Below are positions 1,202-61,400 of a DNA stretch of 64,000 nt, in pieces. This DNA is from Nocardia bhagyanarayanae (GTDB lineage: Bacteria > Actinomycetota > Actinomycetes > Mycobacteriales > Mycobacteriaceae): contig NZ_VFPG01000001.1 in NCBI RefSeq assembly GCF_006716565.1, forward strand, positions 2,790,001 through 2,854,000, written 5' to 3'. The position numbers were made by a program, and so were the translations under genes. How positions within the stretch are numbered: the first letter of the stretch is position 1; the number at the start of each line of letters is the position of its first letter. The notes beneath the pieces were generated by a model, which was given only the letters and a program-made list of their open reading frames with translations, was not told where the DNA came from and made no database searches.

Positions 1202-1251
1202 GCCGCGAGCCTACTGCGCCCACCTCACCCGCGCCCCCCGAGCGCAGACCA

Positions 1252-1342
1252 CCATTTCTCTCCCGTCGATAGAGAAATGGATCCGACGGGGGAGAAATGG
1301 CGGACGAATCGCCCACTGCAGCCACCATTTCTCTCCCGTCGA
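1252..1342. repeat. 91-bp three-arm hairpin element, copy 1
   Basis: Arm 1 (1252-1269, CCATTTCTCTCCCGTCGA) is followed by AGAGAAATGG (1271-1280), an inverted arm (1282-1300), a 24-nt spacer and a third arm (1325-1342) identical to arm 1. The first 10 nt of arm 1 pair perfectly with 1271-1280; the inverted arm pairs with the third arm over 16 bp with one G-U. It lies between the CGNR gene and the start of the molybdopterin gene, so it may sit in the 5' leader of the latter. Further copies are at 10524, 39143 and 56390. Confidence 0.85.
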
Positions 1343-1370
1343 TTCCCGCTCACGCGATGAGGCGGCGGAC

Positions 1371-10523: not shown

Positions 10524-10611
10524 CTATTTCCCTACCGAGCGCAGAGAAATGGTTCCGACGGGAGAGAAATGGTTGCCGCCACGCCGCTCCCAACCACCAT
10601 TCGACTACTGA
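10524..10611. repeat. three-arm hairpin element, copy 2 (degenerate)
   Basis: Arm 1 is decayed (CTATTTCCCTACCG, 10524-10537). AGAGAAATGG (10543-10552) and the inverted arm (10554-10572) are well kept. The 24-nt spacer has the same length as in the other copies, and the third arm (10597-10611) reads CCATTCGACTACTGA. The arms no longer pair well, so this looks like a relic or a hybrid of the CTCTCC and GACTAC types. Confidence 0.7.
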
Positions 10612-39105: not shown

Positions 39106-39142
39106 CGCAACCCCCTCGGCTCGCAGTGAGCCCGCTCGACCA

Positions 39143-39233
39143 CCATTTCTCTCCCGTCGATAGCGAAATTGATTCGATGGGAGTCGAATGGCGGTGCGAC
39201 ACGCCTTCACAACCGCCATTTCTCTCCCGTCGA
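39143..39233. repeat. 91-bp three-arm hairpin element, copy 3
   Basis: Arm 1 (39143-39160) and arm 3 (39216-39233) are identical to each other and to those of copy 1. The inverted arm (39173-39191) carries GGGAGTCGAATGG, so it pairs less well, and the 24-nt spacer adds CGG/CCG that would extend the second stem. It lies between the SMP-30 stop and the cobalamin riboswitch. Confidence 0.85.
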
Positions 39234-39370
39234 TTCGTCGACGCGTGGCCTATGCGCAACTGTCTGGCGATCAGCGTGCGGCACTGGTTGGGGGCTGTTC
39301 AACGGTGGTCTGGGGCGCGGTGATTGGACCTCGGGCCGCGGAAGCTGGGAAGCCGCACGTCGGCGCCCGG

Positions 39371-39540
39371 CGGTATCGTCCAACGGCGACGCGGGGAACA
39401 CCGGTGTGAATCCGGGGCTGTCCCGCAACTGTCACCGAGGAGCAATCCGCCGATTCATGGCCACGACCTGCCCGGGTTGGAAGGCCGGCGGTGCGCGTCG
39501 ATCCGGGAGCCAGGACACCCGCGTCGGATGTATCGGGACG
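39371..39540 (+). promoter_or_regulatory. cobalamin (B12) riboswitch
   Basis: Conserved core words of the class are present in order: GGGGAACACCGGTGTGAATCC split across 39393-39412, GGGGCTGTCCCGCAACTGT ending at 39432, and AGCCAGGACACC at 39508-39519. The ribosome-binding site GAGG and the ATG at 39559 follow within 40 nt, which fits translational control: with cobalamin bound, the kissing-loop fold would hide the start region and shut off the importer operon. Outer boundaries are approximate. Confidence 0.9.
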
Positions 39541-55606: not shown

Positions 55607-55948
55607 GTGTGGTCACCTTCGCTGATCTGGAACGGGTTGTGCGTGGTAGAGCACATCACTCGGAAAAGGGGTGTGACCAGGGTTTTCGTCGGGGTGATCG
55701 CAAGGGGTGGGTGTTGGTTCGGGTTCGTGCTCGAGGTTGTGGTCGGGCGGGGTTTTCGGGAGTGGGGTGTCCAGGGGAGCGCTTGCGTGGGAAGTTGCCC
55801 GATGTTGCAGGTGCTCGGGTGGTGTGGCTTCCGGGGTGGTGGCCTGATTTGCGGGTGCTTAGGTGATGTGCCTAGTGAGGTAGTTGCTCGAGGTGGGGGT
55901 GCTCGTGTGCCTTCCCAGGTGGGCGCCCGATGTTGGGGGAGCCAGAGG

Positions 55949-56264
55949 TCTGCCTACCGAGGTAGTTGCCCGAGGTTGCGGGTGCCGAGGGGGTCTGCCT
56001 ACCGAGGTAGTTGCCCGAGGTTGCGGGTGCCGAGGGGGTCTGCCTACCGAGGTAGTTGCCCGAGGTTGCGGGTGCCGAGGGGGTCTGCCTACCGAGGTAG
56101 TTGCCCGAGGTTGCGGGTGCCGAGGGGGGTCTGCCTGCCCAGGTATTCGCCCGAGGTTGCGGGTGCCCAGAAGGTCCGCCCTCCCAGGTAGCGGCCCGAT
56201 GTTGCGCGTACCTAGGTTGTGTGCCTACCCAGGTTTTCCTCGGAGCAGTGCTGGGCACGTCGTG
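55949..56264. repeat. 45-bp tandem repeat tract
   Basis: Units start at 55949, 55994, 56039, 56084, 56130, 56175 and 56220. The first four are essentially identical (TCTGCCTACCGAGGTAGTTG opens each); unit four has one extra G, and later units drift. Weaker relatives precede it from about 55780. No variable spacers separate units. The last unit runs into the left arm of the large inverted repeat. Confidence 0.9.
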
Positions 56265-56344
56265 TGCCGTACCCGGCTTACCTCCCGCAGTTGGGTGCGC
56301 GGTCTTGATTTCCGGCGTGGTCGACCGGTTCTGGTTGCGTCTAG
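56225..56344 (+). repeat. left arm of 120-bp inverted repeat
   Basis: Matches the reverse complement of 56865-56983 over its whole length, by eye roughly four in five bases with one indel. A 32-nt block (56264-56295, starting GTGCCGTACCCGGCTTACC) is identical to the complement of 56914-56945. Arms are separated by 520 bp. Confidence 0.85.
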
Positions 56345-56389
56345 GGAGTTCAATCTGAAGAGAGTCCTGGTCTGTCAAGGCCCCAACCA

Positions 56390-56480
56390 CCATTTGACTA
56401 CCGTCGATAGAGAAATGGATTCGACGGTAGTCATATGGTGGCTGGCGAAGATCAAATAGCCGCCATTTGACTACCGTCGA
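56390..56480. repeat. 91-bp three-arm hairpin element, copy 4 (GACTAC variant)
   Basis: Arms 1 (56390-56407) and 3 (56463-56480) both read CCATTTGACTACCGTCGA, and the inverted arm (56421-56438) carries GGTAGTCATATGG, so the CTCTCC-to-GACTAC change occurs in all three arms and pairing is kept (17 of 18 bp). The 24-nt spacer ends extend the stem by up to five pairs (TGGCT/AGCCG). T5 follows directly, like an intrinsic terminator. It lies inside the large inverted repeat. Confidence 0.88.
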
Positions 56481-56610
56481 TTTTTGGCGTTCTGAGCTAG
56501 CACACCAGCGCCGGGCGAACGGCGGGCTCAGCGCCTGTCACTGGAGGGACCGGTACCCACCCCGGGACCAGTACCTACCCCGCGCACATGCCGCACGGCG
56601 CCACCCCTTA

Positions 56611-56640: not shown

Positions 56641-56864
56641 CGCCGGCGGACGCCGCGTATCAGCACTCGTCGCAACAGTCACTGCCTCCCACACCTGCAC
56701 CTGCGCGATCAATCACCGCATCCAGCAGACTTTGTAGGCGCACAGCGCCGCCCACAGGTGACCAGCCAATGGGCCACTCCTATGTGAAGGATGCGATCGC
56801 TGGGCAAGACCACCGCGACCACCCACAAACCGCAGCCTCATCCACCGATCCCCGCGCCGCCTCT

Positions 56865-56983
56865 CTAGACGCAACCACAGCCAGATGACCACGCCGGAGC
56901 CCGAGCCACGCTCCCCAACTGCGGGAGGTAAGCCGGGTACGGCACCCGACGCGCCCAGCACCGTTCGAGGCAAACCTGGGTAG
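56865..56983 (-). repeat. right arm of 120-bp inverted repeat
   Basis: Inverted partner of 56225-56344; the identical 32-nt core is at 56914-56945. The outermost base pairs of the arms read CTACCC/GGGTAG on the outside and CTAG on the inside. No target-site duplication is obvious by eye. Confidence 0.85.
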
Positions 56984-57048
56984 GAGTGCGTGACTTCGCA
57001 GGCCCAGCCCCCGGAACCACGTCAACCGACGCAACCCACCAACAAACC

Positions 57049-57427
57049 CGGACGACACCCACCGAACGCCGCCCCGAAGAACCTGGGCCAACCGCGCGAA
57101 TGGCTCAACCTCCAGAGCCACGTCAACCAACGCAGCTCACCGCGACCGGACGACACCCACCGAACGCCGCCCCGAAGAACCTGGGCCAACCGCGCGAATG
57201 GCTCAACCTCCAGAGCCACGTCAACCAACGCAGCTCACCGCGACCGGACGACGCCCACCAACGTGCCCTACAAGAACCGGTGCCAACCGCGCGCGAGTAT
57301 GGCGGCTCAACCTTCGCAGCCACGTCAACCAACGCAACCCACGGATCCACGTCAACCGACGCAACCACGTCAACCGACGCAACCACGTCAACCGACGCAA
57401 CCCACGGAACCACGTCAACCGACGCAA
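57049..57427. repeat. 98-bp tandem repeats followed by 18-bp tandem repeats
   Basis: Two near-identical 98-bp units begin CGGACGACAC at 57049 and 57147, and a third, diverged one at 57245. Then an 18-bp unit CCACGTCAACCGACGCAA occurs at 57347, 57365, 57383 and 57410; the same word also ends each 98-bp unit in variant form, so the short array probably grew from the long one. 98 is not a multiple of three, which argues against a coding role. Confidence 0.88.
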
Positions 57428-58440: not shown

Positions 58441-61400
58441 TTGCTGCGTACTGGCGAGATCTTTGCCGGTTACGTCATCAAGCGCGTGCTCGGACAGGGC
58501 GGCATGGGCACGGTGTATCTGGCCCAGCACCCGCGGTTGCCGCGGATGACCGCGTTGAAGCTGCTCGATCGCGAGCTCTACGGTGATCTCGAGATCAGGG
58601 GACGCTTCGAGCGGGAGGCCGATCTGGTCGCCCAGCTCGACCATCCCAATATCGTCACCGTCTACGACCGCGGCGCCGAGGACGAGCAGCTGTGGATCTC
58701 CATGCAGTTCGTGGCGGGGTCCGACGCCGCCAGCGCCGACGTCGACGTGCTCGCCGCCGGACGGGCGGTGCAGATCATCGCCGAGACCGCCGCCGCACTG
58801 GACTTCGCGCACGCCAACGGGGTGCTGCACCGCGACGTCAAACCGGCCAACATCCTGCTGGCCAAGGCGCCCATCGGGCAGCCCGAGCGGGTGTTGCTCA
58901 CCGACTTCGGCATCGCGGGCATGCGCAACGCGGACACCACGCTGAGCTCCGCGGGCACCATCACCGCCACGCTGGCCTACGCCGCGCCCGAGCAGCTCAG
59001 CGGGCAGCCGCTGGACCACCGCGCCGACCAGTACTCGCTGGCCTGCACGCTGTTCTGGATGCTCACCGGCAACGTGCCTTTTCCCGGCAGCACCCCGGCG
59101 GCGGTGATGAACGGGCACATGTACACGCCGGTGCCGCCGCTGTCCCGCACCCGCCGCGGCCTGCCGCCCGCCTTGGACGCGGTCATGGCCCGAGCCCTCG
59201 CCAAACGCCCCGCCGACCGGTTCCCCAGCTGCACCGAGTTCGCCACCGCCGCCCGCCACGCCTTGGCCTCCGGTACGTCGGGCCCACACCGCCCGCACCC
59301 CGTGACCGGTCCTGTCCCGCCCCACACGGGCTTCGCCACTCAGCACCAGGGCGTGCCGCCTCGCAGCGGGTTCGTCCCCGACGGACGTCCTCCGCATACG
59401 GGCGGCCCCGCACATACCGGTGCACCGGTCGGTTCGCACCCGGAAACGGGCGGTCCGACGCACACTGGTGCACCGGGCGGTGCGCACCCGGAAACGGGCG
59501 GTCCGACGCGCACTGGTGCACCGGTCGGTTCGCACCCGCACATCGGAGGCCCGACGCACCACGGCTCACCGGGCGGTGTGCACCCGCAGACGGGCGGCCC
59601 GACGCACACTGGCACACCGGCTCACACCAGTGCGCATCCGCATCCCGGTGTGCCGCGCACCGGATTCGTGCCGCCCGCGAATGGTGCGCGATCGCATTCG
59701 CCGCACGGAGGCGATCCCTCGCATCCAGGTGCACCTGCGCAGTCGGGTGGGTTGTTGCCGCCCACGGGATTCGGACCGCCCCCGAGCGGTGCGGTGCGCG
59801 CTGCCCACCCTCCGCGTGGGAGCGATCCGTCGCATCCGGGTGTGCCTGTGCAGGCGGGTGGAGTGTTGCCGCCTACCGGTTTCGGGCCGTCCGCGAGCGG
59901 TGGGACGAATGCTGCGCAGCCTCCGTACGGTGGCGATCCGTCGCATCCGGGTGTGGCTGCGCAGGCGGGTGGAGTGTTGCCACCTACCGGATTCGGGCCG
60001 TCCGCGAGCGGTGGGACGAATGCTGCGCAGCCTCCGTACGGTGGCGATCCGTCGCATCCGGGTGTGGCTGCGCAGGCGGGTGGAGTGTTGCCACCTACCG
60101 GATTCGGGCCGTCCGCGAACGGTGGGACGCATGCTGCCCAGCCTCCGCACGGTAGCGATCCGTCGCATCCAGGTGTGGCTGCGCAGTCGGGTGGAGTGTT
60201 GTTGCCACCCACGGGTTTCGGTCCCCCTCCGAACGGTGCGGCGCGCGCTGCCCACCCGCCGCACGGGGCCGATCCCTCGCACCCGGGTGTGCCTGTGCAG
60301 TCGGGTGGGTTGTTGCCGCCCACGGGATTCGGACCGCCCATGAACGGGACTGGCGCGGCTCAACCGTCGTACGGGAGCGACCCGTCGCATTCAGGCCGAC
60401 CGCCGCAATCTGGTGGGTTTCCTCCTCACGCTGACAGTGCACCGTCGAGGAATGTTCCGCCGCAGGCAAATTCGCTTCCGCATACCGGTTCGCCGCACCA
60501 TGCCGGTGTCCCCGGACATCGGCGTCCGGCGGACCTGCCGGGGCCGAGCCGGAACGGTTTCCCGCCGCACACGGGAGCACCCATCGGCCCGCAGCGCGCG
60601 GTGGATCTGACTCGTGGCGCCGGTCCGCACGGGACCGCCCCGTATCCGCACCCTGCGGCCCCGCGCCCGCGAACCAACCCTTCGCACTCGGTGAGCGACC
60701 GATCCCAAGCTGGTCCGCCGCATGTCGGACGCCCGACGGGTCTACCGCGGACACTTCCACTGCCACTGGACGCGGCCATGCCGACCGGTGAGGGCGAGCA
60801 GGCGATCACGCCTGGAACCGGGGCTGGACAGGCGGGTGCGCCAGGAACCGGGGCTGGACAGGCGGCTGCGCCAAGCGCCGGGGCTGGGCAGTCGAACACG
60901 TCCTCGCCCTCTGCTGGCGGCGCGCGGCCGATCCATGGTCGGCCTACCGGTGCCGGGCGGGGGGACACGTCGTTGCCCTCGACCGGAGCCGGAGGGTCGA
61001 ACACGTCATCGCCGTCTGTTGGCACCGCGCGCCCGGCCGCCTCGTCCCAAGGTGCCACTGCCGAGCAGGCGGCTGCGCCAAGCGCCGGGGCCGGGCAGTC
61101 GAACACGTCCTCGCCCTCCGCTGGCGGCGCGCGGCCGATCCATGGTCGGCCTACCGGGGCCGGGCGGTCGGAAACGTCGTCGTCCTCGAACGGGGCTGGA
61201 CGGTCGAATCCGTCGGTTGGCGCCGCACGTCCAGACGCCTCCTCGCCAGGCCCCGCTGCCGAACAGTCGCCGGACGCAGGATCTGGTGGACGAAATACTT
61301 TGCCGCATGACCAGTCCGCGCCGTCCAACACAGGACGGGCAAGTGCCGGAACGCCTCCGCGGCACACGTCCTCGACGGCCGGAGGCGCGGAAGGCTCGGC

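Follow-up and report, generated by a model that had tools for sequence, protein, structure and literature searches.

What is the short intergenic sequence at positions 56,390 to 56,480 of this stretch of Nocardia DNA, and how do sequences like it come to recur between genes? In the window, that is, the whole 64,000-nt stretch of DNA that we analyzed, a short DNA repeat able to form hairpins occurs four times, with three copies intact and one decayed. We give a probability of about 0.55 to the reading that they belong to a new family of extragenic hairpin repeats, dispersed in genomes of the genus Nocardia and REP/BIME-like in character, whose copies would be made by an enzyme acting in trans and would persist at the 3' ends of transcripts.

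Anatomy of the copies in the window

The sequence in question, copy 4, is an intact compound element with GACTA-type arms at 56387..56481 on the plus strand. It was delimited by repeat search, and as a query it gives 112 BLAST matches in its own genome. It consists of two modules. Module U1 (56390..56418, plus strand) is a 29-bp imperfect palindrome in which arm 1 and a short inverted piece form tail-to-tail half-sites. Module H2 (56419..56482, plus strand) is a hairpin of about 62 bp in which the inverted arm 2, a loop and arm 3 are arranged head to head. H2 is the part common to other Nocardia (alignment A3, described below), and the R2 covariance model, which includes own-genome sequences, matches it at C1:2846419-2846482 on both strands with E-values of 3.9e-17 and 4.1e-17 (the E-values of R2, as those of model R1 below, come from a shortened calibration).

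Two more copies, both intact and with CTCTC-type arms, are found on the plus strand at 39140..39234 (copy 3) and 1249..1343 (copy 1). Copy 3 follows the end of an SGL-domain gene, whose stop is 34 bp away, and precedes a cobalamin riboswitch by 119 bp. For copy 1, the stop codon of a minus-strand ABATE/CGNR gene (1371-1922) is 27 bp away. Copies 1, 3 and 4 are built alike: two direct arms have a start-to-start distance of 73 bp, an inverted arm lies between them, and a shorter inverted piece overlaps the end of arm 1. The arms, the inverted arm, the short inverted piece and the third arm are all found where the preliminary description of this DNA had placed them. The arm pattern CCATTTNNCTNCCGTCGA, allowing up to three mismatches, has 16 matches in the window, compared to a mean of 1.36 (largest 5) in 100 shuffles, and 13 of the 16 fall within the four copies.

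Copy 2 (10524..10611, plus strand), with a TerD-domain gene on one side and a 2-oxoglutarate dehydrogenase-type gene on the other, is degenerate. It has 78% identity to copy 1 over an 81-bp alignment, and no inverted repeat above the search threshold. The four-copy family that had been proposed holds for three intact copies, the one at 10524-10611 is a decayed relative, and a genome-wide count of at least 53 copies makes the four a small sample.

Copy number and variants in the genome

The repeat has a high copy number. A BLAST search of the 7.56 Mb of its own genome (2 contigs) with copies 4 and 1 returns 60 loci, which correspond to at least 53 distinct places, copy 2 not being counted among them. 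The 29-base compound pattern with up to 3 mismatches has at least 59 matches in this genome, where the reversed-pattern control has 0, and the hairpin model R2 has at least 126 strand-matches. The length of the element is near-constant around a variable loop: 50 of the 53 copies have no internal indel although the loop varies, and extra bases occur in L024 (1), L043 (1) and L054 (11).

There are two main arm types, CCATTT-GACTA-CCGTCGA and CCATTT-CTCTC-CCGTCGA, and chimeras exist. The modules are also rearranged. U1 is flipped in six copies, the H2 loop is seen in both orientations, and the spacing from U1 to H2 is lengthened from 20 to 30-31 bp in L054, L265 and L266. Each module stands alone as well, H2 at C1:1625021 (L260) and U1 at C2:420633 (L262). 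Among 87 exact arms, those outside the first set fall at three loci, which are a lone hairpin, a lone U1 and one further element.

The ends of the element can be read from the 26 copies without the neighboring repeat U (see the last section) on either side. Conservation in these falls off at the element ends, with flank information of at most 0.75 bits upstream and at most 0.94 bits downstream, where 4 of the 26 are mis-anchored. In several lone (GACTA) copies, a common 5' extension ending GTCAA-CCCC makes the left boundary indistinct, and many GACTA copies finish in ATTTC or ATTTTC.

In the reading that we prefer, the basic unit is the arm, which is about 22 nt long and reads (A)TCGA-NNNN-AGTCAWATGGTGGCT. 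The 62-bp H2 hairpin is a pair of facing arms with a loop between them whose length hardly varies. In the clade of the window, U1, consisting of two overlapping half-arms set tail to tail, is attached upstream at a distance of 20 bp or, less often, of 30-31 bp, and U1 and H2 together make up the 91-96-bp compound element.

Distribution in Nocardia and beyond

The compound pattern is found in at least 4 of 150 genomes of the genus: that of the window (at least 59 matches), N. amikacinitolerans NBRC 108937 (G051, at least 21), N. lijiangensis NBRC 108240 (G099, at least 6) and G163 (at least 1). At E<=0.001, the covariance model R1, built from alignment A2 (see below), has matches in at least 21 of 148 genomes of the genus; several of those in other species are weak, such as the ones in G052 (6.9e-4), G049 (5.4e-4) and G023 (2.7e-4). 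The distant matches are single hairpins of the form (A)TCGA-NNNN-AGTCAWATGGTGGCT, loop, complement. We recovered H2-like hairpins from 18 other Nocardia genomes, and their stem letters change in pairs: the letters at NNNN differ between species together with their pairing partners. The strand-matches of R2 number at least 76 in G149, 43 in G140, 40 in G048, 30 in G051, 24 in G074, 22 in G147, 16 in G131 and 12 in G099, and the places are about half as many because the listed hairpins mostly match both strands. The search for further copies that had been suggested as a check, covariance models included, brings up many in the genome of the window and in other Nocardia, and we found no match to a known family, the opposite of the outcome named in advance as refuting.

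The changes of stem letters from species to species bear on a second reading, in which the hairpin element would represent a class built from phased arm half-sites (at 20 and about 31 bp, with up to five direct arms in a row in one species) and copied by a non-HUH enzyme as yet unconnected with REP-like repeats, the arms having co-diversified with that enzyme species by species. Such co-diversification would explain the species-specific NNNN stem letters. We regard it as a tentative proposal, and on balance doubtful.

In an order-wide search, at least 10 of 397 genomes, in at least 6 of 85 genera, have matches at E<=1e-4. Nine of these are besides the window's own genome, and all nine are outside the genus. 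The out-of-genus sequences that we retrieved resemble other hairpin families that have some letters in common with this one. Related-looking hairpins (GATCTAGGG...) occur in another family of the order (L246-L248, L256, L258 and L259), some of them just past an apparent stop codon, in C/G-rich gaps. A phage or plasmid origin was also considered and rejected: a blastn search gives no match in 50,697 records of phages or 72,556 of plasmids, and one exact hairpin pattern has 0 matches in viral contigs.

Folding and covariation

Copies 4, 1 and 3 fold better than shuffled sequences, with z of -7.0, -6.0 and -4.9 on the plus strand and of -8.6, -5.4 and -2.3 on the minus strand, where copy 3 is the weakest. 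The fold of copy 2 is weak and not better than shuffles (z -1.6 on the plus strand, -0.65 on the minus strand). Taken alone, the two 22-nt arm types of this genome reach folding energies of -1.0 and 0 kcal/mol and do not improve on shuffled sequences. The energies are lower for the 23-nt arm of L181 (-3.7, z -2.4) and for U1, the 29-nt palindrome (-3.1, z -1.9).

Alignment A2 includes 37 of the 53 copies, and leaves out L024, L043 and L054, the ones with extra bases. In A2, 89.2% of the cells are paired for arm 1 with arm 2, and 89.8% for arm 2 with arm 3, in agreement with the earlier claim that the middle arm is able to pair with either outer arm. The arm-1/arm-2 pairing exceeds shuffles on 5 of 5 measures. 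The arm-2/arm-3 pairing, which is H2, exceeds them on 3 of 5, and the other two measures are reached by 440 and 386 of 500 shuffles. The U1 stem has no covariation in A2, and falls below shuffles on 5 of 5 measures (500/500 shuffles).

A middle arm with two possible partners raises the case of an RNA switch with two alternative folds, an option of the preliminary description that we now set aside as highly improbable. Arm 2 is able to pair with arm 1 or arm 3, and both pairings beat shuffles on the A2 covariation score, but no Rfam riboswitch matches the element, and the copies of mixed arm type (9 of the 37 in A2) have a better pairing, by 1-4 pairs, in 8 cases and equal pairings in 1. The other-Nocardia loci that we examined have no tail-to-tail pair (the arm-1 type), and what is conserved is therefore not a two-state switch. 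Moreover, 22 of 46 copies are between convergent genes, where a 5'-UTR switch cannot act.

Alignment A3 extends the analysis of H2 across species. It includes 60 sequences, 55 from 18 other genomes and 5 from the genome of the window. For its assembly, 59 loci were scanned, of which 4 have no hairpin, and 74 hairpins were found; after dropping 16 of the 74 (other hairpins, duplicates and irregular ones), 55 of the remaining 58 were used. Paired stem changes across species are frequent: 19 of 24 stem pairs have changes on both sides, and the covariation score is 0.372, versus 0.147 for shuffled and at most 0.087 for slid alignments, with the proviso that the pairing in A3 is inflated, as a model that takes structure into account and a filter for hairpins were used to collect its sequences. 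Template-switch correction could also maintain identical arms.

Arm spacing

The spacing between arm cores takes few values. Between cores in the same orientation, the distance in the genome of the window is 20 bp for 38 of 42 cases and 30-31 bp for the other 4. For G051 and G099, the distance is 20 bp in 16 of 18 cases and 31 bp in 2, and for other Nocardia it is 29-32 bp in 10 of 11, where 5 of the 11 come from one locus (L234). Head-to-head cores are separated by 34 bp in 36 of 43 cases, and by 35 bp in 7. Genome G048 (L267, L269 and L271) has runs of up to 5 direct arms with spacers of about 10 nt, in 29-32-bp steps, beside a hairpin. These runs look regularly interspaced, and they adjoin ordinary genes, those for a glycerate kinase, uvrA, a transporter and a gamma-glutamyltranspeptidase. 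Integron attC, CRISPR and TIGR arrays were also considered and set aside.

Phased spacing of this kind could come from a protein-binding array, also an option of the preliminary description, in which the arms are half-sites for a DNA-binding protein with a role in nucleoid structure, recombination or transposition, and a hairpin results incidentally where such sites are head to head. The same-orientation spacings approximate two and three helical turns, the direct arms of G048 are at 29-32-bp steps, and the U1 sequence is kept without covariation. The phased spacing and the G048 runs keep this explanation alive, but the steps of 29-32 bp are inexact, and the paired stem changes between species together with the near-constant loop length favour a hairpin. 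We consider an array to be improbable.

Turnover of sites between relatives

We used anchors from 25 U-free copies to identify the orthologous stretches in three relatives. An element is present at the orthologous site in 4 of 17 cases in G051, 0 of 16 in G099 and 0 of 14 in G163, which retains one remnant arm at one site. These counts leave out L020 and L051, which had been added because they are shared. The aligned flank pieces are 70-97% identical, and alignments are poor or one-sided for L029 and L047. Two of the window copies illustrate the outcome. Copy 3 occupies the same site in G051 (L134), and is absent from G099 and G163. Copy 1 is absent from the orthologous site in all three, and at that site G099 has a short stretch matching the first 11-13 bases of the element, possibly a remnant.

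Sites turn over fast, with 13 of the 17 tested in G051 lacking the element, and many sites are unshared between sister species. In the comparison of empty sites that the preliminary description had called for, most of the tested sites are unshared, but no clean empty site appears in the relatives compared: differences between the orthologous intergenic stretches extend over tens of bases, and an empty site cannot be read because the intergenic DNA around the sites changes too. The copies are candidates for typing markers in the N. amikacinitolerans group, and for 3'-end elements.

Genomic position and possible role at transcript 3' ends

The element is intergenic, as had been claimed from the first copies. 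None of the 53 genome copies is inside a called gene, and two of them (L034 and L039) overlap the end of a called gene by 5 and 26 bases. For the 46 copies with a resolved gene context, 22 are between convergent genes, 20 between tandem genes and 4 between divergent genes. The background of 66 gaps of at least 100 bp has 10 convergent, 36 tandem and 20 divergent ones. The enrichment between convergent genes (22/46 vs 10/66) has a Fisher p of 2.5e-4, on a background that itself contains elements and that combines the window with 12 loci from N. amikacinitolerans and N. lijiangensis. An earlier gene-calling setting gives 21 convergent, 21 tandem and 5 divergent of 47. The gene caller is home-made and mis-assigns some genes, such as the minus-strand ABATE/CGNR gene to the right of copy 1, which it calls on the plus strand. 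A gene 3' end faces 21 of the U-free resolved copies, and 15 of these 21 sit at most 65 bp from it.

A terminator scan for a GC-rich hairpin with a 3-8-nt loop followed by a T-run finds none at copies 3 and 4. The best Rfam hit on an element is mir-250, with 22.9 bits versus a cut-off of 58, and no Rfam family matches the element above its cut-off. The one match that passes is the neighboring cobalamin riboswitch at 39354-39539 (77.8 bits), which precedes a gene for an extracellular solute-binding protein (SBP_bac_5).

The position near gene ends can also be explained without mobility, if the elements are host-encoded bidirectional 3'-end hairpins, terminators or stabilisers of mRNA 3' ends, that spread by recombination and template switching. 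The convergent enrichment, the 15 of 21 copies within 65 bp of a facing 3' end, the strong folds of 3 of the 4 window copies and the presence at the same site in G051 in 4 of 17 cases are all as expected for such hairpins. A terminator has no need for the conserved blocks AGTC and ATGG, though, and 13 of the 17 G051 sites lack the element, in addition to the negative terminator scan of copies 3 and 4. We judge this explanation unlikely. In the reading that we prefer, a dispersed repeat copied in trans, the same bias would reflect persistence: copies may last at places where transcripts can end in a hairpin without harm or to some use, for termination or 3' protection, and between convergent genes the hairpin would serve transcripts from either side.

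Evidence on mobilisation

No Y1 tyrosine transposase (PF01797) is found in the genome of the window, in a search whose control is positive in 5 of 14. Such a transposase is absent from 13 of 17 element-bearing genomes, and 4 of 17 carry any. Mobilisation by a RAYT is rejected for the window's own genome, as there is no Y1 gene there. We also looked at 20 proteins beside isolated, paired and unusual copies (12 loci). Pfam matches 18 of them, 2 match nothing, and none of the 20 has a transposase or recombinase domain. The pairs of elements at L118, L263 and L264 were considered as possible flanks of a mobile gene, and this was rejected: they enclose ordinary genes (formyltransferase, GNAT, MerR, AlkZ-like and others).

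A target duplication is absent from 26 U-free copies. Duplications of length k = 3, 4, 5, 6 and 8 are found in 13, 4, 1, 0 and 0 of them, within the range of 200 shuffles, whose means are 11.5, 2.2, 0.65, 0.145 and 0. The ends of the compound unit are direct repeats, not inverted ones, and H2 alone is an inverted repeat of 22-24 bp with near-constant length.

These results allow us to weigh a terminal-repeat MITE, that is, a hairpin that is the minimal derivative of a DDE insertion sequence, with the arms as its terminal inverted repeats and the autonomous copy lost or outside the genomes examined. The 22-24-bp inverted repeat of H2 and its near-constant length, the many copies and the many unshared sites fit such an origin. 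However, there is no target duplication, the compound unit has direct ends, and the proteins next to the 12 loci include no transposase domain. The four stem positions that vary between species would be unusual for a transposase-bound end. A MITE origin seems rather unlikely to us.

The broader suggestion of a non-autonomous mobile element fares better. It is the best supported of the options in the preliminary description, with more than 50 copies and most of the tested sites unshared, but no transposase, inverted ends of the whole unit or target duplication has been found to go with it. In our reading, copies would arise by copy-and-paste of a hairpin intermediate, with an enzyme provided in trans that would be other than a Y1 RAYT.

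Comparison with known repeat families

REP/BIME elements with the GTAG/CGTC tag are short, extragenic and present in many copies, downstream of genes and between convergent genes; they form head-to-head and tail-to-tail dimers, often in species-specific families (PMC3733652). Tagged REPs are reported mainly from Proteobacteria, and the same paper mentions untagged REP-like families in M. tuberculosis, with neither the word Actinobacteria nor Nocardia occurring in it (PMC3733652). The Nocardia repeat is like REP in its high copy number, its extragenic location and its bias to gene 3' ends and convergent genes, the latter as called by our home-made gene caller. It behaves like REP/BIME, but departs from tagged REPs in two tests that define them, and lacks a RAYT. 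The REP unit (20-40 bp) is itself palindromic, whereas a single Nocardia arm has no stable stem-loop and hairpins form between arms. REP has an unpaired GTAG/CGTC tag, whereas the CGTC of Nocardia is inside a paired stem and is replaced by GCTC, CCTC and others in many copies from other species. Units in a BIME alternate in orientation and are separated by short motifs; the Nocardia order is > < < >, not a strict alternation, and its core spacing is fixed at 20 or 30-31 bp in the same orientation and 34-35 bp head to head.

REPINs have two inverted conserved arms around a variable loop, are non-autonomous, and spread within a genome. The Nocardia repeat has similar arms and loop, but without a Y1/RAYT gene in its own genome and in the 13 of 17 element-bearing genomes. 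REPINs are described as mobilised by RAYT transposases (PMC3116915, PMC2817692). GTAG REPs too are explained by RAYT transposases, and high-copy, fast-turnover modular hairpins in mostly Y1-free actinobacterial genomes are a natural test of what else spreads such sequences.

As to MITEs, terminal inverted repeats are present in H2 alone and absent from the compound unit, and the target-site duplication is absent here (26 U-free copies). BOX, RUP and ERIC are non-coding, intergenic, modular and non-autonomous repeats. BOX and RUP belong to the small interspersed repeats treated in PMC3049150; compared to them, the Nocardia repeat comes without a detected flanking target duplication or partner insertion sequence. 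The stem-loop families Myt-1, Myt-8, Cod-1, REPLEP and RLEP of mycobacteria and corynebacteria (PMC2267715) are also dispersed structured repeats of high-GC Gram-positives, in other genera, and we liken them by description; Nocardia is absent from the main text of that paper. Among open-licence papers, we found no description of such repeats in Nocardia.

Module U and other repeats near copy 4

Upstream of copy 4 there is a separate dispersed repeat of 125 bp, module U (56224..56350, plus strand), and downstream an inverted copy of it that is 84% identical (56861..56984, minus strand). Module U is found upstream, in a fixed orientation, of 26 of the 53 copies, and is absent upstream of 27. An inverted U is downstream of 13 copies, 12 of which have U on both sides. 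Because U accompanies 26 of the 53 copies upstream and 13 downstream, some members of the family either move within this second repeat or collect next to it. By eye, the core of module U (CTGTGGTTGCGT or near variants) also appears near hairpins in several other Nocardia genomes. Tandem arrays with periods of 45 bp and 98 bp flank the intergenic region of copy 4, itself rich in repeats, at 55793-56234 and 57017-57336. Farther along, at 59392-60390, long tandem repeats with 48/96-bp and 111/222-bp periods are probably a repetitive protein region.
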